Positions 225 through 17,883 of a stretch of DNA of 48,818 bases are shown one piece after another. The stretch is from assembly GCA_903907995.1 (NCBI GenBank), contig CAIVQH010000008.1:71220-120037 (forward strand), given 5' to 3'. The notes below the pieces were generated by a model. The model worked only from the letters and a program-made list of their open reading frames with translations, was not told where the DNA came from and ran no database searches. Each line of letters starts with the position of its first letter. The first letter of the stretch is position 1. A program made the position numbers and the translations under genes. The DNA comes from an uncultured Verrucomicrobiota bacterium. GTDB taxonomy: Bacteria > Verrucomicrobiota > Verrucomicrobiia > Limisphaerales > UBA9464.

Positions 225-686
225 TCAAGGTGCCTCGGACGCACAGGTCATGCCGAATCTACGCCCCGGAATCATCAGCCAGTGCGATTTCGCAGTCGAT
301 GGAAAGGTCTCTGCGACCAAGTGGTTCCAACGATCGACCAGCGGCGGCGGCATTTCGTAGTATTTGACCCGCAATCGGCAGGCCAGGTTGGTGTCAGTCA
401 CGGGATAAATCCAGTTTGCCCCACTGCGGGGCTTCAGAAATTCGGGGCCGCTCCGCATCTGCGGCGGAGAGTTGGATCCGTATTGGAACCATGGTTCGCA
501 TGTGACCTCACTCGGGGCGCTGTTGGTGGCGCGGAAAACGGCCAGCCAGCCGTGATGGCCGTCGTCCACGTAGCCAACGAAGCGGACCGTGGTGCCCGGT
601 GAACGCGGGGCCAATCGGTAGGCGCCGACCGCCAGGCAGAACAGCAGCAGAGCACCGCCCGCAACTATCAAAATCCTCTTTTTCAT
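225..686 (-). CDS. Membrane-anchored small protein, array copy 2 (intact)
   Basis: A 153-residue protein of a family I do not recognise. It opens with MKKR and one hydrophobic helix (about residues 5-23), which could be an uncleaved anchor or a signal peptide. The remainder has beta-strand-like alternation with the motifs VRFVGY, GWLAVFRATNS and YPVTDTN, so a small extracytoplasmic beta domain is likely. Two further copies flank it: a truncated one at 1-177 and one with a stop codon at 820-1290. The YPVTDTN motif is identical in this copy and the broken one. It is the only copy that can be seen to be complete. It sits in a run of minus-strand genes beginning with the coiled-coil protein at 2214-4199. 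Confidence 0.7.
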   Translation of the reverse strand: MKKRILIVAGGALLLFCLAVGAYRLAPRSPGTTVRFVGYVDDGHHGWLAVFRATNSAPSEVTCEPWFQYGSNSPPQMRSGPEFLKPRSGANWIYPVTDTNLACRLRVKYYEMPPPLVDRWNHLVAETFPSTAKSHWLMIPGRRFGMTCASEAP

Positions 687-819: not shown

Positions 820-1290
820 TCAATGTGCCTCCGTCGTGCAGGTCACGACGTAGTCGCGACCCTGCAACAGCGGCCACCGATGGTCTGGAAACATCTTACC
901 AAACCAGCCGATAACGTCGTTCGCCCGGGAAAACAAAACCGGAGTACTCTTCCAACAGTTGATCTCGATACGGCGGACTGAATTGGTGTCTGTTACCGGG
1001 TAACCCCAGGTGACTTCAGTGTGAGGGGCCAGAACCTTGCTGGCATGCAGCGCCTGATCCGCGCGTACAAATTGTCCGAAGCCGGATTCATAGCCTGGAC
1101 GGCAGGAGACCGTCTCGTATGTCCCATTGGCAGCCCGGAAAACTGCCAGCCACCGCTGATCACCGGCGGCTTCTTAGCCCACGAAGCGGAGAGTGATATC
1201 CTGCGACCCTCCGCCAAGTCGGTACCAGCCGGCGACCAGGCAAACCACCACCAGGCTGCCGCCAAACACGATCAACGTCTTCCGTTTCAT
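820..1290 (-). pseudogene. Membrane-anchored small protein, array copy 1, interrupted by an in-frame TAA
   Basis: Reading from ATG at 1290 gives MKRKTLIVFGG, a hydrophobic segment ending GWYRL, and then LRFVG followed by TAA at 1176-1174 (codon 39). Reading past that codon restores the family sequence without any frameshift: RWLAVFRAANG, GYPVTDTN, and a terminal TCTTEAH before the TGA at 822-820. The intact paralogue at 225-686 has Tyr (TAC) at the same place, in VRFVGY, so one base change accounts for the stop. The rest is well conserved, so the lesion looks recent or the codon may be read through. ATG at 1265 in another frame opens a short ORF with no family resemblance. Confidence 0.75.
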
Positions 1291-4341: not shown

Positions 4342-5940
4342 ATGACCTTCCTGCCCATCGCCCGGCGTGAACTGCTGGTCGCTTCCCGCCGGAGAACGAC
4401 CTTCCTCGTGCGACTGACCACCGCCATCGGGGCGGCGTTGCTGGGGTTTGCCCTGCTGGCCTTTGGCGGCAATGCACGCACGTCGGGCGACCTGATGTTC
4501 ACCTACCTGGTCCAGGGCGGCTTTCTCTACGCGCTCTTCGCCGGCGTGCTGCTGGCCGCCGACAGCATCAGCGAGGAGAAGCGCAACGGCACGCTGGGCC
4601 TGCTGTTCCTCACCGATCTGGGCGGCTTTGACATCATCACGGGCAAACTCACCATCGTCGGTCTCAACGCCCTGATGGCCCTGCTCGCCGGCCTGCCGGT
4701 CGCGGCCCTGGCTTGGATTCTCGGCGGGGTGACCGGCGGCGAATTCTGGCGCTGCGTGCTGGTGCTGTTGAACACCCTCTTCCTGTCGCTCGCCGTCGGC
4801 CTGGCGGTCTCCGCCCGCCGGCGCGTGCAAATCGAAACCCTCATCCGCACGCTGATCTGGCTTGTCGTGATCACGTTTGGCCTCGGGCTGCTGCACCGGC
4901 TGCTCCTGACCCGTCCCTCGACCGAAGTACTTCGCTGGTGGCTGGGCATGAGCCCGTGGGTTTCCTTCAGCGGAGCGAAGGACCTGCCTTATCGGGCCGA
5001 TCCGGGCCGGTATTGGTCCGCCTTCTGGCTGGCGCACCTGTTGGCCTGGCTGTTCCTGATTGCCGCCAGCTGGACCGTGCGGCGTCGCTGGCAGGATGCC
5101 GCCGTCACCCAGCCGACGAAGGCGGCGGTGCAGGTCCGCATCGGGGCCGACGGAAAATCCGTCAGCATCCTTCGCCGGGTCATTTCCCTGCGAACGGAGC
5201 TCCTCGACGACCTGCCCATCGCGGCCCTGCTCTCGTCGGACACCCAGGTCCGCCTCTGGGTTTGGATCGTGGTGGGACTGGCCGGCCTGCTGGTGGGCAT
5301 CAACATGCTGACCGGCAATGACCCGCTGCTGCCGATTTCCTTCCTCACCAAACCCAAGCTGATGCCGGCGGCACTGACCGGGTTGCTCCTGCTTGTGAAG
5401 ACGCTTTTCGCTTGGCAGGCCTGCGAATTCTTCGCCACCTGCCGGCGCAACGGCGCACTGGACTCCCTGCTCACCACGCCGCTCACGGATGCGGAGCTCT
5501 ACCGTGGTCAGTGGATCGCCCTGCGGCAGAATTTCCTGCCGCCGCTGGTCACGCTCGCGCTCGTTCTGGCACTGGGACCGTTCATCCAGCTCCTGGTGGG
5601 GGCGAAAGCCGCTGCTCTCGGCCCCGGCTGGGAGCCGCTGTTTCAGGCTTGGATCAGCTGGCTTTTCTGGCTAGTGTCGCTGCCGCTTGAGCTGACGGCG
5701 ATCTGGTGGTTCGGGATGTGGCTCTCGCTCACGCAAGCACGGCCGGGCTGGGCGTTCGCCAAGACGGTGGCTTTCACCGTCCTGCTGCCGCAGGTGTTTT
5801 TCTGCGTACCCTCCCTGCTCATCGCGGGCGCGGTTTTCAGCTATGCCCGCGGCAAGCTCCGGCTTCCCATCCGTCACGTGATCAACGGCGCCCGCGACCC
5901 GCTCGCCTATCGGGCCATGACGCCCCGGCGTTTCCGATAA
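4342..5940 (+). CDS. ABC-2 type transporter permease (two fused halves)
   Basis: A 532-residue integral membrane protein. The N-terminal half opens with PIARRELLVASRRR, the usual start of ABC-2 permeases, followed by six or so TM helices. Each half has a related signature after a TM segment: EEKRNGTLGLLFLTDL near residue 77 and CRRNGALDSLLTTPL near 372. This indicates two permease halves joined in one chain, with a soluble linker of about 70 residues between them. No ATP-binding subunit is encoded nearby, so the partner must be elsewhere. The substrate cannot be told from sequence. The start at ATG 4342 gives the standard N-terminus. The upstream in-frame ATG at 4270 would add a Thr/Arg-rich extension. 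It is divergent from the coiled-coil gene, with a 142-bp shared promoter region. Confidence 0.82.
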   Translation: MTFLPIARRELLVASRRRTTFLVRLTTAIGAALLGFALLAFGGNARTSGDLMFTYLVQGGFLYALFAGVLLAADSISEEKRNGTLGLLFLTDLGGFDIITGKLTIVGLNALMALLAGLPVAALAWILGGVTGGEFWRCVLVLLNTLFLSLAVGLAVSARRRVQIETLIRTLIWLVVITFGLGLLHRLLLTRPSTEVLRWWLGMSPWVSFSGAKDLPYRADPGRYWSAFWLAHLLAWLFLIAASWTVRRRWQDAAVTQPTKAAVQVRIGADGKSVSILRRVISLRTELLDDLPIAALLSSDTQVRLWVWIVVGLAGLLVGINMLTGNDPLLPISFLTKPKLMPAALTGLLLLVKTLFAWQACEFFATCRRNGALDSLLTTPLTDAELYRGQWIALRQNFLPPLVTLALVLALGPFIQLLVGAKAAALGPGWEPLFQAWISWLFWLVSLPLELTAIWWFGMWLSLTQARPGWAFAKTVAFTVLLPQVFFCVPSLLIAGAVFSYARGKLRLPIRHVINGARDPLAYRAMTPRRFR

Positions 5941-5946
5941 TGACTG

Positions 5947-6032
5947 AGTTTCGAATTACGAGTTTCAAATGTCGAATTCTGAGTCACCGGTTATTGATCA
6001 CTGATTACTGATTACTCGTCCCTGGTCACTCG
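5947..6032 (+). repeat. AT-rich short tandem repeat block
   Basis: The interval between the permease and the ceramidase-like gene is unlike its GC-rich surroundings. It contains staggered repeats of TTCGAATT/TCGAATTC type and then GATCACTGATTACTGATTAC with TGGTCACTCG. Similar words occur at 7667-7779, 18629-18656 and 29703-29733. No gene or clear terminator is visible in it. Confidence 0.6.
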
Positions 6033-7406: not shown

Positions 7407-10064
7407 CTATTGGGCGACGGCACCGACCCGTGCCAGCCGTAGCACCGGTTCCTTCTTTGTGCGGGATTCGGCGAGATCCACCGAGAACTCGACGAGCCAG
7501 TCGTTGTGCTCCTCCGGGTCAACGAGCACCTGCTGCACACGCCAAGTCTTCTTGTCTTCGGAAGGGATAACGTAAGTGTGCCGCAGATTGCGCGCGGCGG
7601 GATCGAGGCAGAGGTAGCGGTGGCCGGAGGCGTAATAAGCTTCGAACGCGGCGTGTAGATCGGCTGGATTTACGATTTTCGATTTACGATTTACGAGGCC
7701 ATCGGCGGCCGGATCGCTGAGTGGCATCGGCTGCGTTTCTCCGCGCTGACTCACTGGCTCACTGGCTGACTGGCTCACTTTGCCGCCCTCCGCTTCGGTC
7801 AACGTCACGACCGCGAACGCCGCCTCGTACTCCTCGTTTGCCACGGCGCGCAGGAAGGTGAAGATCAGGGTACGGATGGCGGCGGTGAACGCCTTCGCGT
7901 CGCGCGTGATATCCTGCGCCGCCGCGTCGGCGCCGGGCGGGCGCACCTCCGGTGCGTCGGTGGACGGCGGACGGTAGTTGGGGTCGCGCATCTTCTCCCA
8001 CTCGTCGAGCAGGCTGGAATCGACCTGCCGCAGCATCGTCGCGAGGTAGATCTCCATCTCACGGACGGCGTCGGTCTTGGCCGCGTCGGGCACGGTTTGG
8101 GAGAGCACCTTGTACACGCTGTTCAGGTGGCGCAGCAGCACGCCCTCGGCGCGTTGCAGCTCGTAGATCTTGATGTAGTCGCCGAACGAGCGGAACTCCT
8201 CGAACATCTCACGGACGATGGATTTCAGGCGGAGATTCTCGGTGCCGACCCACGGGTGCCGGTCGGACCATTCGTTGAACAGCGGGTAGAAAAACTCCGG
8301 CTTCGGCTTTGGCGGCTCCAGTTTTTCCAGCTCCTCCATGCGCTGGTCGTATTCCATGCCCTGCGCCTTCAGCTCGGCGATCTTCTGGCCCTTCAACCGG
8401 CTCAGCTGCGCGCGCAGGATGACCTCCGGACTTTCGAGGATGCCCTCGATCAGCGAGATGAGGTCGAGCGCGTAGTCGGGTGCCTCGGGGTTCAGCGCCG
8501 GGATGGAGTCGAGCAGGAACAGCGAGAGCGCCTGGTTGAGCGAGAAATCCTCGGGCAGCGCGACATTCACGCGCAGCTTCGCGCCTTCCGGCGTGGGGGG
8601 GATGAACTCAATGATCTTCCGCTCCAGCAGCGAGCGGAAGAGCTGCCAGGCGCGTTTCGTGTGCGCCTTCTTCTGCTTCGCGGAATCGTGGCACGTGCGG
8701 ATCAGCTCGCGCATGGCGGCGCAGCCGTCGCCGGGACGGCCGAGCACGTTGAGCAGCATCGCGTGCGTGACCTGGAAGCGCGACGTGAGCGCCTCGGGCG
8801 CGGCGGTCTGGAGCCGCTCGAAGGTCTTCGCATCCCAGTTCACGAAATTCTTTTCCGGGGCCTGGCGCTTCACGACCTTCTTGCCGCTGTTCTTCGCCTT
8901 CTCCTCGAGCTTGAGGTTTTCGATCACATGCTCGGGAGCCTGCGCGACCACCCAGCCAACATTGTCGTGGCCCTTGCGTCCGGCGCGTCCGGCGATTTGG
9001 TGGAAATCGCGCGCGCTGAGGATCGCGACCTTTTCGCCGCCATACTTGCACAGCCGCGTGAAGAGCACGGTCCGGATCGGCACATTGATGCCCACGCCCA
9101 GCGTGTCGGTACCGCAAATGACCCGCAGCAGGCCGCGCTGCGCGAGCTGCTCGACGAGGATGCGGTACTTCGGCAGCAGCCCCGCGTGATGCAGCCCGAT
9201 CCCGTGTCGCAGCCACTTCTTCAGCTCGGGACCGTAGGGGCTGCCGAACTTGAAGCCCTCAATTGCGCTGGCGATGGCCGCCTTTTCGTCGCGTGTCGCG
9301 ACGTTGATGCTGGTGAAATCCTGCGCGCTCTCGGCCGCCTCGGCCTGCGTGAAATGGACGACATAGACCGGCCCCTTGCCGTCGGCGATCAGCTTCTCGA
9401 GCGTCTGCGCGAGCGGCGTCTCGGCGTAGGAGAACTCCAGGGGCACCGGCCGGGTCGTGCCTTTGATTGTGATGCTCGGGCGATGATTCACCCGCGTCAT
9501 CTCAGTCTCGAAGAAAGCCGTCTCGCCCAGTGTGGCGGACATCAGCAGGAAGCGCGACTGCGGCAGCGTGAGCAGCGGCACCTGCCACGCCACGCCACGC
9601 TCGCGGTCGGAGTAGTAATGAAACTCGTCCATCACCACGTCGTGAACCAGCGCGCGTTCGCCGTCGCGCAGGGCGATGTTGGCGAGAATTTCCGCCGTGC
9701 AGCACACGATCGGGGCGTCGTGATTGACCGTGGCGTCACCGGTGCTCAGGCCGACATTTTCCGGCCCGAACTCGCGGCAGAGGGACAGCCACTTCTCGTT
9801 CACGAGCGCCTTGATCGGGCAGGTGTAGAAGGAGCGCCGCCCCTTCGCGAGCGACTGGAAATGCAGGGCCGACGCGACGAGCGATTTGCCCGAGCCGGTC
9901 GGTGTGTTGAGAATGACGTTCTTCCCTTCGAAAAGCTCCAGGATCGCCTCCTCCTGCGCCGGATACAGCTCCAGACCCTTCGCGGCGACGTAGTCCAGAA
10001 AGCCGCCCAGCAGGGCGTCGCTGGAAGTCGAACCGGCCTTGAGGAGTTGGTCGTAGAGCGTCAC
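7407..10064 (-). CDS. DEAD/DEAH-box helicase, DUF3516 (Ski2-like) type
   Basis: An 885-residue SF2 helicase. Motif I is TPTGSGKS (54-61), motif II is DEFH (146-149), motif III is SAT near 174, and the second RecA domain carries [13 protein letters not shown] and the [10 protein letters not shown] motif VI. The long C-terminal half (about 420-885) resembles the DUF3516 region of actinobacterial and verrucomicrobial RNA/DNA helicases. The expected role is unwinding in RNA or DNA metabolism, and the exact substrate is unknown. Residues about 762-799 are encoded by low-complexity repeats (7667-7779) absent from the logic of the domain, giving [10 protein letters not shown] and VNRKSKIVN. The reading frame is preserved. 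The open frame starts at ATG 10064, close to the N-terminal Q-motif-like LYPAQEEAI. No SD is clear. Confidence 0.87.
7667..7779 (-). repeat. In-frame short tandem repeats inside the helicase gene
   Basis: Two blocks are visible. Positions 7667-7697 are repeats of GATTTACGA/GATTTTCGA. Positions 7746-7779 are repeats of CTGACTCACTGG/CTCACTGG. Both look like the AT-rich intergenic repeats elsewhere in the window, but here they lie inside an open reading frame and add about 38 residues to the helicase. Confidence 0.7.
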
Positions 10065-10140
10065 GCGTGAGCCGCAGTGACTAGCGGTTTGCCGGGCTGG
10101 TGGAAAGCGGGGAGAGAGTGAATTTGGAAAGCAGGAAGGC

Positions 10141-10218: not shown

Positions 10219-11343
10219 TCAATCCGCCACGTTCACCAGCTTGAGCGCACCGACGCCGCCGGGATTCCAGTTCGTGAAGAGGATATAGACCTCCTGCTTG
10301 GAGCCCTTGCCGGTGACGTACCACGCGGCGTCATGGATGTGCTGGGCATCGGCATAGCGCAGGTCTTCCTTGGGCTTGATCGTCGCCACGATGGACTTGG
10401 TCTTCAGGTTGATGATGTAGATGGGGCCGGGCGCGCCCTTGGTGCCATCGAGGCAGGGGGCGAGGGCGTAGTCACCCCACAGGTCCACATCGCACACCGT
10501 GCTGCCGGGCGGCAGGCCGGCGATGTCGGTGAAATACGATTGCTCCCGATTCCAACGCTTGAGCTGCCCCTCGGGGCGGGCGGAGATGATCAGGCTGTGG
10601 TCGCGCGGATCGTAGGTGATGCCGTGCGGCGTATTGGAGATTTTTTTACCACCGTAGAATTTGCCGGTGTAGTGGAACGGCCCCGTGCCGGCCGGCATGA
10701 AGTAGGCCTTGCCGTAGCCGTCCGTCACCCAGATCTCGTCCTTGCTGACGAAGGCCGCGTCAGTCGGCGCGAAGCCCTTCTTGTCGGCGTAGGGATCAAG
10801 GTCAGGAATCTTCAGCGTCTCGGCGTGCTGGAACGAGGTGTCGGTCAGATAGACCTCGCCATCGTTGTTGTCGGCCACCACCACGAGCGGGAGCTGGCCC
10901 TTGCGCGGGAGGATGTCGGCCCCGTGCAGATTGCCGTGCGCGAAGGTCGGGTCGCCGGCCACGATCCAAGAGGCGGTCAGGTGGTTGCTGAAGCCGATCC
11001 AGCCCACGCCTTCAAGGCCCCAGAACACCTGGTCGCGCTCCTTGTCCACGATGATGGTGCCGTGAGCGCCCTTGATCTTGGGCATCGCGGCGGCCGGCAC
11101 CGGGGTGAGATCGCGCGCCGGCACGAACTTCCAGAAACCCGAGCCGCTGATCGGCATGCCCGGGGCGAGCGTCATGGGCTTAGGGGCGCGAACCGGCCCC
11201 TTTTTCTCGACGACCATGGGCAGCTGCGTGGCCGTCATGGCCTCATCGGGATGGCCACCGACGACATCATGGGCGAAGGCGGCGGGAGCGGCCGACAGCG
11301 CGAAGACGGCCAGGGCGAAGGGGAAACGAAGTTTCAGGTGCAT
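10219..11343 (-). CDS. Secreted beta-propeller protein (NHL/YncE-like)
   Basis: A 374-residue protein with a signal peptide (1-24, ending PAAFA|HD). The mature part has repeated short blades with patterns such as [50 protein letters not shown] and [18 protein letters not shown]. This suggests a six- or seven-bladed propeller in the outer periplasm. His-rich words ([14 protein letters not shown]) could bind a metal, but no catalytic motif is recognised. ATG 11343 is chosen because the signal peptide begins there. The frame is open to 11391 but that stretch lacks coding character. It is divergent from the kinase gene, with a 132-bp gap, and ends in a strong terminator. Confidence 0.75.
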
Positions 11344-11475
11344 ATCAGGAGTCGAGTGCGCTGAGACTTCCAATTCTGCGCCCGGAAGCAAAGCCGAAGT
11401 TCAGGTGAAGGATCACGCGACGCCACAACACATTGTCTGTAACCTCAGCCTCAGTTCTCCTCAGGAAGCGGGTGT

Positions 11476-14400
11476 ATGAACTCTGAATCTGTCCCGAACC
11501 GCTGCCCCCAGTGCGGCGGCACCGTCCCGCCGGACGCGCCGCAGGGTCTCTGCCCGCGTTGCGTGCTGGCGCGCGCGGCAACCCCGACGGAGGGCGGGGC
11601 GAAATCCGGCAGCCGGCTCACCCCGCCACCGATGGAGACCGTGGCGGCGGCCTTTCCGCAATTCGAGATCCTCGAGCTCATCGGGATCGGTGGCATGGGC
11701 GTGGTGTACAAGGCTCGCCAGCCCAAGCTCGACCGGGTGGTCGCGCTGAAGCTGCTGCCCCAGTCTCACGGGGCAGATCCCGCCTTCGCCGAACGCTTTC
11801 ACCGCGAGGCCCGGTTTCTCGCCCGGCTCACGCACCCGCACATTGTCTCCGTTTTCGACTTCGGCGAATCGGGCGGCTTTTGCTACCTGCTGATGGAGTT
11901 TGTGGACGGCGTGAACTTGCGGCAGGCGATGCAGGCGGGCCGCTTCTCGCCAACGCAGGCGCTCGCGATCGTGCCCGACATCTGCTCCGCCCTCCAATAT
12001 GCGCACGAGCAGGGTGTGCTGCACCGCGACATCAAGCCGGAGAACATCCTGCTCGACGCCCAGGGACGCGTGAAGATCGCCGACTTCGGCATCGCCAAGC
12101 TGTTGGGTGATCCCGGCGATTCCCTAACCGGCCTCACGCTGACCCAGAGCGGTGCGCGGTTGGGCACGCCGCACTACATGGCACCCGAGCAGATCGAAAA
12201 ACCGTCCGAGGTGGACCACCGGGCCGACATCTACTCTCTAGGCGTTGTGTTCTACGAACTGCTCACCGGCGAGCTGCCGTTGGGCCGCTTCGCCGCCCCC
12301 TCCGCCAAGACCCCGCTCGACGCGCGGGTGGACGAGATTGTCATGCGCGCGCTGGCCAAGGAACGCGAACTGCGCCAGCAGAGCGCCGGCGAGATGCGGA
12401 CGCAGGTGGAGACGGTGGCCGCGAATCCTGGAGGCAGCCTTGAGGCAGCCCGGCCTTCCGCCGGGTCAGGACTGCTCAAGGTGGGCATCAGTACGATTAC
12501 CACACCGGAAAGGCTCGCCACCTTCGCCGGGCAATTCTTCCTGTTTCGCACCCAGGGCCAGCTGATGCTCGACGCTCGCCAGCTCACGCACTCACGCACC
12601 GGGGTGACGACCGTCATCCCGCTGGCGGCCATCCGTGACCTCAGCATCGGGAACTACCCGCGCGCGATGAACCCGGTGGGCATTGATTTCCTCAGTGTGA
12701 GCTACGAGGAAGGGGGCGGGATCAAAAGGGTGTTTCTCTCGCCCATGAACAGCTTCTTCGGCCGGCCCTCAAGTTTTAATCAGCATGTCGCGGAATGGTT
12801 TCACGCAATCCAGGATGCCGTTCGCGACGTGACCGGGCGAGCCCCCGGAACCACGCCGGCGGAAAAGCTCGGCACCCCACGTGGTTCCAAGGCGATTTAC
12901 GGCCTGTACCTCGCGATGGTGCTCGCGATCGCCATCGGCGTAGGCTTCGTGGTCTTCGTCAGCTTCACACTGCATCGGGGTCCGACGGATGGGCCAATCA
13001 GTCCGTTCCTCTCGACTTGGCTGGGGCCGATTGTTGCCAGCGTGGCGGGCATCCTGTTCGGACTTCGAGCGGCATTCAAATCCGTGTACCGAGCGCCCGG
13101 CGTCTTCATGGCAGCGGGCAAATCCAACCCGTGGCCGCATCGGCTGAAGTGGTTGCTGATCGCGCTGTTCGCGCTGCCCCTGTCGGCCTTCGTGGCCAGC
13201 CTGGTGGCTCCGATGTTGCATCGGGGAAGGCTGGGCGGTTTGGGAGGGATCACGGCCGGATTGGTGCCCATGACAACCGGAGCGGTGCTGGCCTGGCTAT
13301 TCCTGCGCAGCCGGCCATCGGGAACCCGGCCTGACGGAAAGTACCTGCAAGCGCGCCGACTCTGGCTGGGGCTGGCGCTGGTGTTCACGGTTTTCCTGAC
13401 CGTCATGCTGCCGCTTGTGATTTATCTGCGGCAACGGGAGGCAATGTCACCCCCGATGCTGCCAACGGCGGATTCGTACGATGCCCAACTGATCCGCACC
13501 GAAAGATTCGCCACCAACGCACAGCTTCGGCTGCGGTGGGAACTGTATTCGACCAAACCAACGGTCGTCCGAATCGGCTGTCAAAATGTCGTCCGGTACA
13601 TCGAGCTGCCCGAAGTCGGGCCCAGCCGATACGGAACCACGGTGACCGTGCTGATGGGAGCCCAGGGGACAAACCGGGCGAGTTTGACGGTCGCCTGTGG
13701 CATCGGCGTCACTGACGAGACGGTTAACGTCTTCCGCGATGGAAATCCGGAAGAACTGGTGGCCAAAGCCAATGAGTACGTGACGGGTGATCTGCCGCTC
13801 AAGTTCAACACGCCAATCTGGCTCGCCTTCTTCGGATCGGACCAGGTCACTCTCGAACTTCGTGCCAAAGGGCCCGCCGTGCAGGCCGCCAGCCCCACAT
13901 TGCCGTCGCCCCAGACGAGAACCCCGACTTTCTCCAAGGGCGATGCGAGGATTGACGCGATGGAACTTCAATTTGCGCAGAACCGGCTCGCCGAGCTGAA
14001 GAAACAGGCTGAAGTCGGAATGGTCGCGCCACAGGGTAGGGAGGTCCTGGACGCGGAGGTGGCCGTCGCCGAGGCGGAGGGCAAGCTCAGGGGCGATCCC
14101 CGAGTCGCGGCCATTGTCCGGCTGAAGCGGGCGGCAATCCTGTTTTCCAGCGCTCGCAAGCTGGAAGCGGTCGGCAGCGCCCCCCACGCTGACGTGGAAC
14201 AGGCGCGACTGGAGCAGATGAAAGTCCGGGCAGCGTTCGCGGAAACGCTTGGCCGCGATACCACGACTCCGGCGGAACTGAAGTGGCTCCAAGCTTGGAA
14301 TCCCTATTTGGAAGAGAAGGCAAAGCTCAAGGCCGGTGAGACTTCGCCGGCCCAATTCATTCTGGTCTTCAGAGATTTGAACGTGGCGGAGGCCGAACTG

Positions 14401-15006
14401 CTTCACCAACCGCTGTGGGCGGCACAGGTCCGCGTGGAATATCGTCAGGAAATGCTGGAAATAAAACGTCACGAGCTTTCAGCCGGCCAGGTTTTCCAAG
14501 CGGAAGTGGACTCTGCCGAACTGCTCCTGAAACAGGCGGAGGACGAGCGACGTGAGGTGGAGAAGGCCAACCCACCGGCTGCGGCAGTCCCCCCTGCCGA
14601 AAACGGGAAGACCAAGCCCATCCTGGGGCAAGATGGCAAATTTTCCTGGCTTCCAGGACAACCCCTTCTTTCGACGGATGCCGGCCAATCCAAGGGCGAT
14701 TCCGCGCAACGGGCGGCGTCTCCGGAACCGGCCAAGGCACCGGTGGACTATTCCGGGGTGGTTCGCTTTTTCGGGGACGTCAGCGGAAAGATCGAACTGC
14801 TGGCCGGACATCCGACCTGGCTCAGTGAAGCCGTGTTGGACCTTCACCCAAGCCAGTTCGCCGACCTGAGAAAAGTCACGGTGCAACGGGCCGACGGCAC
14901 ATCCGCGGTGGTCGATGTCCACCGAGTGATCAACGATAACCATCGCGAACAGGATCTGGAACTGCGCGATGGAGACCGCGTTAAAGTTCCCCAACGGATT
15001 CTCTAG
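11476..15006 (+). CDS. Receptor-like Ser/Thr protein kinase with zinc ribbon, TM helices and C-terminal SLBB-like domain
   Basis: An 1176-residue protein. Residues 10-29 form a zinc ribbon (CPQC...CPRC). A Hanks-type kinase follows (about 63-320), with G-loop GIGGMGVVYKA, Lys92 (VALK), HRDIKPEN (183-190), DFG (203-205) and GTPHYMAPEQ (230-239), so it should be active. After it come a PH/GRAM-like beta domain (about 335-455), about five TM helices (about 475-655), and a beta-rich domain. A helical region with recurring 'G.V....V..AE..L..A' words spans about 815-1040. The last 90 residues (LRKVTVQRADG ... LELRDGDRVKVPQRI) match the SLBB pattern of polysaccharide-export proteins. It is followed after 20 bp by an ECF sigma gene, which is the likely target. 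AGGAAG precedes the ATG. Confidence 0.88.
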   Translation: MNSESVPNRCPQCGGTVPPDAPQGLCPRCVLARAATPTEGGAKSGSRLTPPPMETVAAAFPQFEILELIGIGGMGVVYKARQPKLDRVVALKLLPQSHGADPAFAERFHREARFLARLTHPHIVSVFDFGESGGFCYLLMEFVDGVNLRQAMQAGRFSPTQALAIVPDICSALQYAHEQGVLHRDIKPENILLDAQGRVKIADFGIAKLLGDPGDSLTGLTLTQSGARLGTPHYMAPEQIEKPSEVDHRADIYSLGVVFYELLTGELPLGRFAAPSAKTPLDARVDEIVMRALAKERELRQQSAGEMRTQVETVAANPGGSLEAARPSAGSGLLKVGISTITTPERLATFAGQFFLFRTQGQLMLDARQLTHSRTGVTTVIPLAAIRDLSIGNYPRAMNPVGIDFLSVSYEEGGGIKRVFLSPMNSFFGRPSSFNQHVAEWFHAIQDAVRDVTGRAPGTTPAEKLGTPRGSKAIYGLYLAMVLAIAIGVGFVVFVSFTLHRGPTDGPISPFLSTWLGPIVASVAGILFGLRAAFKSVYRAPGVFMAAGKSNPWPHRLKWLLIALFALPLSAFVASLVAPMLHRGRLGGLGGITAGLVPMTTGAVLAWLFLRSRPSGTRPDGKYLQARRLWLGLALVFTVFLTVMLPLVIYLRQREAMSPPMLPTADSYDAQLIRTERFATNAQLRLRWELYSTKPTVVRIGCQNVVRYIELPEVGPSRYGTTVTVLMGAQGTNRASLTVACGIGVTDETVNVFRDGNPEELVAKANEYVTGDLPLKFNTPIWLAFFGSDQVTLELRAKGPAVQAASPTLPSPQTRTPTFSKGDARIDAMELQFAQNRLAELKKQAEVGMVAPQGREVLDAEVAVAEAEGKLRGDPRVAAIVRLKRAAILFSSARKLEAVGSAPHADVEQARLEQMKVRAAFAETLGRDTTTPAELKWLQAWNPYLEEKAKLKAGETSPAQFILVFRDLNVAEAELLHQPLWAAQVRVEYRQEMLEIKRHELSAGQVFQAEVDSAELLLKQAEDERREVEKANPPAAAVPPAENGKTKPILGQDGKFSWLPGQPLLSTDAGQSKGDSAQRAASPEPAKAPVDYSGVVRFFGDVSGKIELLAGHPTWLSEAVLDLHPSQFADLRKVTVQRADGTSAVVDVHRVINDNHREQDLELRDGDRVKVPQRIL

Positions 15007-15026
15007 ATCATCGAGCCCAAGTGAGC

Positions 15027-15770
15027 ATGCCCACCGCCGCGCCATCTGCTTTCGCCCCGACGCGCTGGACGCTCGTGCTCGCGGCGCGCGGCGAAACGCC
15101 GGCAGCGAAGGCGGCTCTCAGTGAACTTTGCGCGGCGTATTACCAACCGGTGTTCCGTTTCTTCCGCCACGGGGGACGCGATGAGGACGCGGCCCGAGAA
15201 CTGACGCAGGAGTTCTTCGCCCGGCTGCTGGCCCGGGACAGCGTGGCCGGCGCGACGCCGGAGCGCGGGCGCTTCCGCTCGTTCCTGCTCGGCGCGGCGA
15301 AGCATTTTCTCGCCGACCAGCGCGACCGGGAGCAGGCGGCCAAACGCGGCGGTGGGGCCACTCCGGAGCCGTTCCATCCGATCGGGCACGGCCATGATAC
15401 CGAGAACGGATCGGGCTTGCAGATCGCCGACACGGCGGCGGATAGGCCCGATACTTTTTTTGACCGGCAATGGGCGCTCGCCCTCATGGACCGGGCGCTC
15501 GCCGCGCTCACCGGCGAACTCACAGCGGAAAATAAGGCGACCCACTTCGTCGTGCTCAAGCCGTGGCTCGTCGGTGACGCGGCCGCGGTGTCCCAGAGCG
15601 AGGCCGCCCGTACGCTGGGCCTGAGCGAAGGGGCCGTGAAGGTGGCGATCCATCGTCTGCGGAAACGCTTTCGCGAACTGATCCGGCACGAGGTGGCCCA
15701 AACCATCCCCGCCACCGAGGACGTGGACACGGAGCTGCGCTATCTGGTCGAAGTGCTGACCGGTGGATAG
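15027..15770 (+). CDS. ECF-type RNA polymerase sigma factor
   Basis: A protein of about 247 residues. It opens with TRWTLVLAARG, the N-terminal signature of the planctomycete/verrucomicrobial ECF subgroup. Region 2 follows (YYQPVFRFFRHGGRDEDAARE, TQEFFARLL, RGRFRSFLLGAAKHFLAD), then a long linker, and region 4 (SQSEAARTLGLSEGAVKVAI, HRLRKRFRELI) with a helix-turn-helix for the -35 element. It should redirect RNA polymerase to a set of target promoters. No anti-sigma gene is adjacent. The upstream kinase ends 20 bp before this start and is the obvious regulator; kinase-controlled ECF factors are known (EcfP/PknT of Vibrio parahaemolyticus). GTG at 15021 in the same frame is an alternative start. 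Confidence 0.9.
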   Translation: MPTAAPSAFAPTRWTLVLAARGETPAAKAALSELCAAYYQPVFRFFRHGGRDEDAARELTQEFFARLLARDSVAGATPERGRFRSFLLGAAKHFLADQRDREQAAKRGGGATPEPFHPIGHGHDTENGSGLQIADTAADRPDTFFDRQWALALMDRALAALTGELTAENKATHFVVLKPWLVGDAAAVSQSEAARTLGLSEGAVKVAIHRLRKRFRELIRHEVAQTIPATEDVDTELRYLVEVLTGG

Positions 15771-15837
15771 GGCCAATCTGCCGGCGCTATTCGCCCGTTG
15801 CAAAATGGCGAATGACGGCGATGGTGTTCACGATTCC

Positions 15838-17883
15838 ATGAATGCCATTCGCTGCCGAACAGGCCTCGCATCCGTCCTCTGCGTTTTCCTGCTGACCTTC
15901 ACCTCGGCCCAAAGCCGGGCGGATGACGTCGTGATCAACCAGTTCAACGGGGCAGGCGAGGTCTCCGCCTGGCATTTCGATTATGGGTCGGCCAATGTCG
16001 TCACCTCGGTGGCCTTCTCCACCAAGGATGCCAAGAGCAGCGCCACCTCGGGTTCGATGGCGATCCAGGTCACCTACGGGCCGTCGTTCCAGCAGGCCGC
16101 GTTCACCGCCAACCTACCGACGCCGGTCGATGCCACGACCTTCAGCAGCCTGGAGTTCGACGTGAAGGTGGACGACGCCTCCGGCCTGGATAAGTTCGGC
16201 AACGCCCTCTACTTCCAGCTGGCCCTCCGAAACGGCAGCGCTTTCAGCTACAACAAGGTGTTCCAGGACAATGTGGCGGTGGTGAGCACCAATGGCGGCT
16301 GGCGCCACGTGGTGGTGTCGCCGCTCACCGGCGGCGTGGACGACATCCGGGCCATCACGCTCGACCTCTACGACGGCAACTATGCGAGCAACGGCACCGC
16401 GAAAATCTACGTGGACAACCTGAAGTTCACGAAGCCCACCCCGACGGTCGATGTGCTCGTCAGCAAGTTCGACAACAGCACTGAGACCGATCCATGGCAA
16501 TTTGACTATGGTTCCCCGAACATCGTGAACCTCACGCAGTTCTCCACCGATGACGCTGACGGCGACCCGAATTCGGGGTCCTTGGAGATCCAGGCCGGCT
16601 ATGGTCCTGGCTCACCGCAGGCCGCCTTCACCGCCACGTTGAACCCGACGGTTGACGCCTCCACCTACCTGAGTTTGGAGTTCGATGTGAAAGTGGACCC
16701 CGCCTCCGCGCTCGATCCGTCGGGCAACGCCGCCTATTTTCAGTTGGCCCTGCGCGTCGGTACGGGCTTCAGCTACAACAAGCAGTTCGCGGACAATGTG
16801 GCCATCGTGAGCACCAACAACGGCTGGCGGCATGTCGTGGTGTCACCGCTGGTAGGCTCGGTGGATGACATCCACGGCATCACGTTGGACCCGTACGACG
16901 GCAACTACACCGCGTTCAACGGGCCGACGATAATGCGGATCGACAACCTCAAGTTCACGGCCCCGCTCACCGTTACGCCTCCGCCGCCGCCGACCGCCTC
17001 ATTGCGCCCGGCCCTGCCCGGCCTGAACCTGATCCCTCAGGGCGCGCTCAATCGCGAAAGCATCGCGACGCACGGGGACAATCTGGGCTGGGTGGGCAGC
17101 GCGAAGCCGGTGAGCTATGCGGTCACCATCGGCGCCTATCCGGACGCCGCCCATAATGGGTTCCAGACCCACATATTCCTGGACCCTTCGGACAGCGGCC
17201 CCGACACGTATGCGGATTACAACCGGCCGAACATCATCTTCCTCGATATCCAGAACCAGGCCGACGGCACGACCTTCGCGGCGTTCCGGTACAAGACGAA
17301 CGAACCCCAGCACAACACGTTTCTCTACTCGACCGGATCGCTCGGCGGCGTGTCCTGCCCGACGGCTCTCGGGACCTGGACGATGACCTTTGACCATGAC
17401 ACCAACGTGACCCTGACCGCCCCGAACGGGACGACCTTCAGCACCAATCTCCCGCCTGCGGCGGCCGCTCTTTTCAGCGGTCCGATCAACGCCTCGCTGG
17501 GTGGCCAGGCCAACAACAACGCCACGGTCGGCGAGACTGCGGTCGTGACCCGCTTCCAGATTGCCAACGGGGAGACTGTCCTCGCGGACGACCACTTCAG
17601 CAGCGACACGGAATTGGACACCAGCTTCTGGCAGCCGGCCGCCGTGGACCCCGCGAGCGTGGTGTTCGCCTCGCCGGATTCACGCTATTGGCTGGCGTGG
17701 ACGCTGCCCGATACGGGCTTTCATCTCCAAAGCACCACCGGCCTCTCGAATACGGATATGTGGACCGACTCGGCCCTGCCCGGCGTCACCTACGCCACGA
17801 CGAAACGGGTGCTGCTCCACACCGCCGACCTGCCGGACACAGGCAAAGGGTTCTTCCGGCTATTGCAACCGGCCGCGCCCTGA
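15838..17883 (+). CDS. Secreted protein with two tandem beta-sandwich (CBM-like) domains and a W...FFRL C-terminal module
   Basis: A 681-residue protein with a signal peptide (about 1-27, ending SRADD). Two repeats of about 175 residues follow (about 28-200 and 203-378). Each has the order WHFDYGS/WQFDYGS, SLEFDVKVD, YFQLALR, FSYNK.F.DNVA.VSTN, GWRHVVVSPL and DNLKFT. This looks like a carbohydrate-binding jelly roll of galactose-binding type. A PPPPP linker leads to a third beta-rich region and finally an ending of the form WTLP..GFHLQSTTGLS...W...FFRLLQP. The TIG protein at 26849-28990 ends the same way. ATG 15838 is chosen for the signal peptide; ATG 15805 would add 11 residues. It may be controlled with the kinase/sigma pair, 67 bp upstream. 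It ends at a strong terminator. Confidence 0.78.
   Translation: MNAIRCRTGLASVLCVFLLTFTSAQSRADDVVINQFNGAGEVSAWHFDYGSANVVTSVAFSTKDAKSSATSGSMAIQVTYGPSFQQAAFTANLPTPVDATTFSSLEFDVKVDDASGLDKFGNALYFQLALRNGSAFSYNKVFQDNVAVVSTNGGWRHVVVSPLTGGVDDIRAITLDLYDGNYASNGTAKIYVDNLKFTKPTPTVDVLVSKFDNSTETDPWQFDYGSPNIVNLTQFSTDDADGDPNSGSLEIQAGYGPGSPQAAFTATLNPTVDASTYLSLEFDVKVDPASALDPSGNAAYFQLALRVGTGFSYNKQFADNVAIVSTNNGWRHVVVSPLVGSVDDIHGITLDPYDGNYTAFNGPTIMRIDNLKFTAPLTVTPPPPPTASLRPALPGLNLIPQGALNRESIATHGDNLGWVGSAKPVSYAVTIGAYPDAAHNGFQTHIFLDPSDSGPDTYADYNRPNIIFLDIQNQADGTTFAAFRYKTNEPQHNTFLYSTGSLGGVSCPTALGTWTMTFDHDTNVTLTAPNGTTFSTNLPPAAAALFSGPINASLGGQANNNATVGETAVVTRFQIANGETVLADDHFSSDTELDTSFWQPAAVDPASVVFASPDSRYWLAWTLPDTGFHLQSTTGLSNTDMWTDSALPGVTYATTKRVLLHTADLPDTGKGFFRLLQPAAP

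Follow-up and report, generated by a model that had tools for sequence, protein, structure and literature searches.

The window analysed here, a stretch of 48,818 nucleotides from an uncultured Verrucomicrobiota bacterium, contains a kinase gene and an ECF-type sigma factor gene that follow one another on the forward strand, with a promoter-like element before the first and a gene for a secreted protein behind the second (Table 1). The secreted-protein gene lies outside the unit that is conserved among relatives.

Table 1. Features of the kinase–sigma locus (nucleotide positions in the window; residue numbers for the parts of the kinase chain)
Feature	Position	Strand	Remarks
TGTAAC-N16-CTCAG, predicted ECF-type promoter of the kinase–sigma operon	11438..11464	+	conserved place
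Kinase gene	11476..15006	+	ORF, 1176 aa, one chain
Kinase chain, inner part	ribbon 10–29; kinase 63–270; conserved domain ~341–470; TM 477–649		
Kinase chain, outer part	beta domain ~671–797; helices ~821–1031; SLBB 1086–1176		
SLBB (beta-grasp) domain at the kinase C-terminus, homologous to that of OPX proteins	14731..15003	+	AlphaFold, structure matches, alignment with 21 homologues
ECF-type sigma factor gene	15021..15770	+	ORF, 249 aa; 14 bp after the kinase stop
Secreted protein with two similar repeats	15838..17883	+	likely start M26 of the listed ORF 15763–17883

The kinase begins with a zinc ribbon, whose cysteines C10, C13, C26 and C29 (CxxC..CxxC) are at least 90 % kept in an alignment of 34 kinases, and continues with a Pfam Pkinase match (PF00069, E-value 2.8e-51) in which the motifs HRD183, DFG203 and APE236 are all present; residues H183 R184 D185 and D203 F204 G205 are invariant across the 34 kinases. 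Both the domain and the catalytic motifs of a Hanks-type Ser/Thr kinase are thus found. Hydropathy predicts five transmembrane helices, and the part after residue 650, with the C-terminus, should therefore lie outside the cytoplasm. The ribbon, the intact kinase and the several membrane helices had all been proposed in the initial annotation, and each is borne out. The conserved domain that precedes the membrane segment is common to ten kinases including that of the window, with ten stretches in the nine others; the initial annotation had called it PH-like, a label that the comparisons did not confirm, as it has no match to a PH family in Pfam (four of eleven rows match CheF-arch weakly, the best at 0.0024) and no meaningful match by sequence in the PDB. 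An AlphaFold model of residues 656–1176 consists of a beta domain, a flexible linker, eight long helices and a C-terminal domain, although with a mean pLDDT of 69 and a pTM of 0.35 the last domain alone is firm. Comparison of the helices returned TolC-like rows, but Z-values in that range are uninformative for helices and the relation was set aside.

The 91 residues of the C-terminal domain are modelled with a pLDDT of 93 (from a 15-row alignment), and when this model was used in a Foldseek search the first fourteen PDB rows were Wza, WzaB and GfcC. VIA-align 2 superimposes the domain on residues 162–252 of Wza with a Z-value of 13.1 (87 residues, 2.3 Å) and on WzaB with a Z-value of 12.1; thirteen chains reach a Z-value of 8 or more, and the ten top-listed entries are again Wza, WzaB and GfcC. 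The initial annotation had suggested an SLBB-like end and had named fold prediction of residues 1085–1176 as the check, with any other fold counting against it; the fold is SLBB. At the sequence level, neither SLBB/SLBB_2 nor Poly_export of Pfam matches the window kinase at E-values up to 1. Among relatives, Pfam SLBB falls below its cut-off in L068, L098 and L104 and exceeds it in L099, there for a neighbouring SLBB copy. When the PDB was searched with a 22-row profile of the domain, a polysaccharide export protein ranked second (E-value 0.027), after a short match to a riboflavin kinase (0.016).

When the last 94 residues were used as the query, matches were found in 37 of 58 genomes, the window's own included (E-value up to 0.1), many of them in open frames of approximately 200–340 aa. 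Eleven of these stand-alone relatives look, by eye, like proteins with a signal peptide, a Poly_export-type part and SLBB, and Pfam Poly_export is weakly matched in two of them (0.0051 and 0.096). In both stand-alone loci whose neighbours were scanned, one in the window's genome and one in L109, the gene is directly followed by one that encodes a Wzc-like ATPase domain and, in L109, also matches Wzz. The window kinase has, by its fold and by this chain of sequence relatives, a C-terminal SLBB domain in common with the OPX proteins (Wza and the class-3 protein WzaB) and with GfcC; unlike OPX proteins, it lacks Poly_export and has its SLBB attached to a kinase. It carries an OPX-type domain, yet is itself no OPX protein. 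We note that the stand-alone Poly_export–SLBB gene of the window's own genome (contig C5, L098, ~5124–5993, minus strand) is broken by an in-frame TAG and is a pseudogene or an assembly error. SLBB genes of the window's group also occur in L113, L115 and L119, in records titled Akkermansia muciniphila and alongside records titled Verrucomicrobia bacterium; these labels look doubtful.

A domain profile finds SLBB in four of the 33 locus kinases, or five of 34 with the window's, a share that is not a frequency since some of the loci were fetched because of the domain. The five belong to the window's genome (G000), G003, G002 and G004, which are of one genus, and to G010 of the same family; with so few carriers, the pair works elsewhere without SLBB. 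In the phylum as a whole the domain is present in 97 of 288 genomes (E-value up to 1e-6), and no further fusion to a window-type kinase was seen in eight frames read, which include the six longest listed besides the window's (478–773 aa), a sample in which fusions to other kinases would be missed. The SLBB copies of the kinases stand apart from OPX, TPR and ankyrin copies in an unrooted tree, in which long branches may attract each other and the placement of G010 is unsure. SLBB-ending TPR and ankyrin proteins fall among the OPX copies in this tree, a pattern that suggests repeated capture of the domain. The TPR or ankyrin proteins that end in this SLBB domain are found in L099, L100, L101 and L105; in L105, from G002, the TPR copy falls with the OPX copies of G004 and G002.

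The kinases of the window and of G003 are 95 % identical over residues 1–329 and 70 % identical over residues 546–1176, with no match between, and those of G002 and G004 have both ends in common, with 607 and 1112 aa between them, a difference of 505 residues. To judge from these two comparisons, close orthologues have exchanged the part that follows the kinase domain. The SLBB end could be an oligomerisation or anchoring module that clusters the kinases, the real sensor being the beta domain or the helices before it, and this would fit both with kinases of the same genus (e.g. L071, L072 and L073) that have the same beta domain and helices and no SLBB match, and with the octameric state of Wza, the best structural match, as given in PMC9603273. 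However, the SLBB end has been kept in both G002 and G004 despite the large difference in frame length, which favours a role of its own, and we consider a purely clustering function possible but doubtful.

The product of the sigma factor gene scores 42.0 bits against TIGR02937, just under the cut-off of 42.9, and its region-4 Pfam match (3.8e-5) is also below cut-off, but with this sequence as the query relatives are found in 52 of 58 genomes, its own included, in agreement with the initial proposal of an adjacent ECF sigma factor. The further proposal that an anti-sigma gene is absent also stands, as the two flanking genes scanned (10219–11391 and 15763–17883) match no anti-sigma family. Among 94 listed related kinases, at least 73 have a same-strand sigma gene as their neighbour; it is downstream in 55 (no more than 6 kb from the kinase-domain match) and upstream in 18 (no more than 1.5 kb away). 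This count is a lower bound. Some of the other 21 kinases are at contig ends (e.g. L068, L073 and L074); in L073 a cut sigma match is seen. The pair is thus conserved in relatives, which the initial annotation had put forward as a point to survey.

Besides that of the window, 30 kinase–sigma pairs were read in the loci. The distances among kinases and among sigma factors are correlated (r=0.86, n=31 pairs), as they are in kinase-first pairs alone (r=0.83, n=27), with none of 5000 permutations as high in either case, and the nearest neighbour is identical for kinase and sigma factor in just 16 of the 31 pairs. Shared descent of a two-gene unit accounts for these correlations just as well as co-adaptation. 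In G014 (L075, 5062–5466, plus strand) the full kinase gene is closely preceded by an N-terminal kinase fragment that carries a separate copy of the upstream element, perhaps the trace of a duplication.

The upstream element, TGTAAC-N16-CTCAG, stands 11 nt upstream of the kinase start codon, an ATG. A single match of this kind in the window is at chance level (one found with up to one mismatch, 1.09 expected), and the evidence for the element therefore rests on its conserved place. GTAA[CT]-N16-CTCAG occurs in 23 of 33 kinase upstream regions and a relaxed variant ending in CAG in 30, mostly ending 8–12 bases before the ATG, whereas no region has the element with another spacer length in the range 10–22 and shuffled regions give a mean of 0.006 matches. 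When the 33 upstream regions are aligned at the start codon, the mean ungapped identity is 27 % at positions −137 to −57 and 37 % at −47 to −1. A longer form, GTAACCN13-17CTCAGGAA, has 23 exact matches in the 58 genomes, compared with seven for the reversed pattern. Eighteen of the 23 have the corresponding spacer of 15, and 15 of these 18 are tied to kinases, with 14 before complete genes and one before a fragment; the remaining eight of the 23 are not before any listed kinase. Six loci have the sigma gene first, and in these the element was not seen by eye in the 110 bases before the sigma match.

The two arms and the spacer resemble the general form of ECF promoters, and the element is probably an autoregulated ECF promoter. 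It could instead be a site for another regulator or a translation signal, and the AGGAAG within it might indeed act as a ribosome site in the window, but this is improbable in view of the fixed 16 bp spacer with conserved blocks on either side, of the GGAAG part, which varies where CTCAG stays, and of the downstream block, which changes with the sigma lineage. For the last of these, the distance between the five-base downstream arms is correlated with that between the sigma factors (r=0.54, n=30, none of 5000 permutations as high), so that the arm appears to change with the sigma lineage, and shared descent applies here too. A search of the window's genome for further targets gave nothing convincing, with 12 matches at spacers 14–18 (four of them at spacer 16) compared with 24 for the control, and a regulon search with one mismatch stayed below the control in each of five genomes. 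On contig C38 of G000 a match precedes a glycosyltransferase gene, but this was dismissed as chance because the orthologue in G003 has no match before it, and the other two spacer-16 matches (C11 and C47) fall within a reading frame or at its end.

The secreted protein encoded behind the sigma gene had been suggested as a target, but the nearest relative has no such gene at the syntenic position, and the suggestion is not upheld. In nine other genomes the gene does have matches, none of them on the contig of a listed kinase. No glycan-export family was found among ten window ORFs scanned (E-value up to 1e-5), four of which matched nothing. Elsewhere in the window, two open frames lie opposite each other, at 8097–10070 (plus strand) and 7407–10064 (minus strand). 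One of them, read by eye, is helicase-like, and the long frame facing it is better explained by high G+C than by a second gene.

In ECF43, too, the gene for a transmembrane Ser/Thr kinase adjoins that for an ECF sigma factor, and phosphorylation of the sigma factor by the kinase is described for EcfP/PknT of Vibrio parahaemolyticus and EcfK/PknS of Xanthomonas citri (PMC13147305, PMC8999054). In the published pairs phosphorylation is direct, on a Thr found in place of the acidic DAED/DxxD motif of region 2.2, and on the linker (PMC13147305, PMC8999054, PMC8103513). ECF43-linked kinases have varied outside domains according to the same sources, as has the window family. In the window type, by comparison with ECF43, the kinase gene comes first and there is a common upstream element. 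The window sigma factor differs further in region 2.2, where it has AARE-LTQE and retains one acidic residue of DxxD, in place of the STTA or QTTA described for ECF43; replacement of the DxxD acids with Thr in place and STTA/QTTA, the combination that marks ECF43, is not found in it. In 22 window-type sigma factors the first DxxD acid is absent in 20 and the second retained in all, and both are retained in five other kinase-first sigma factors outside the 22 and in three of the four that precede their kinase. Some sigma factors lack the Thr of LTQE, and positions 14, 17, 87 and 228 are Ser or Thr in all 22. With one acid remaining and a Thr that is not universal, the motif is not diagnostic of the ECF43 switch, although it is a half-discharged site and such a switch is possible. 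ECF59, 61, 62, 217 and 283 are likewise linked to a kinase gene and, according to PMC8999054, keep a DAED-like motif; contrary to this, another review describes the motif as replaced in kinase-regulated ECFs, with Ser in ECF59 (PMC8103513).

The remaining acid also leaves room for a different arrangement, in which the substrates of the kinase are proteins other than the sigma factor, which would be controlled by transcription alone. That the operon has its own conserved element would accord with this, as would the statement, in PMC8103513, that some ECFs may be controlled in this way; but the sigma gene adjoins most of the listed kinases, and kinase-activated ECFs are on record in PMC13147305 and PMC8999054, so that we regard this arrangement as unlikely.

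We favour the reading that the locus is a two-gene unit of an SLBB-ended kinase and its cognate ECF-type sigma factor, and for sensing, phosphorylation and autoregulation as a whole we put its probability at roughly 0.6. Its architecture, the SLBB fold, the pairing and the conserved place of the element are observed, and the promoter function, the phosphorylation and the ligand are inferred. The two genes would probably be co-transcribed from the upstream element, which would most likely be recognized by the sigma factor itself, amounting to positive autoregulation. The outside part of the kinase would sense something in the periplasm, the kinase would activate the sigma factor, most likely by direct phosphorylation, and the activated sigma factor would transcribe the operon that encodes it, with perhaps a few further targets. 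The most likely ligand of the SLBB end would be a glycan or some part of an OPX/Wzc export machine, which its nearest relatives should bind as well. That the signal is related to glycan export, as the initial annotation had modelled, can fairly be inferred from the domain, because the SLBB domains of OPX proteins are predicted to interact with polymer (PMC9603273). More speculatively, and with little confidence in the proposal as a whole, the kinase might read the state of the glycan-export machine. Its SLBB end, which shares its origin with the OPX proteins encoded next to Wzc-like genes, would dock there or on polymer as it emerges, and the phosphorylated sigma factor would relay this to RNA polymerase and to its own promoter. 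SLBB would then be just one among many outer cassettes that these bacteria exchange on a common kinase–sigma chassis.

Kinase–sigma pairing is of a known kind, and it is the SLBB outer end and the common promoter-like element that are new. Limited literature searches returned no SLBB-ended kinase–sigma system and no autoregulatory-type element of this form, which does not prove their absence, and for TGTAAC with ECF they returned other systems alone. Direct activation of an ECF by a neighbouring kinase is reported for members of ECF43, and other kinase-linked ECF groups are said to need characterisation (PMC13147305, PMC8999054). The family described here provides some thirty pairs that combine a single kinase chassis with outer parts that vary and with a defined candidate promoter. 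Input, phosphosite and output are thus separately open to experiment, and a reporter for the promoter could be made at once.
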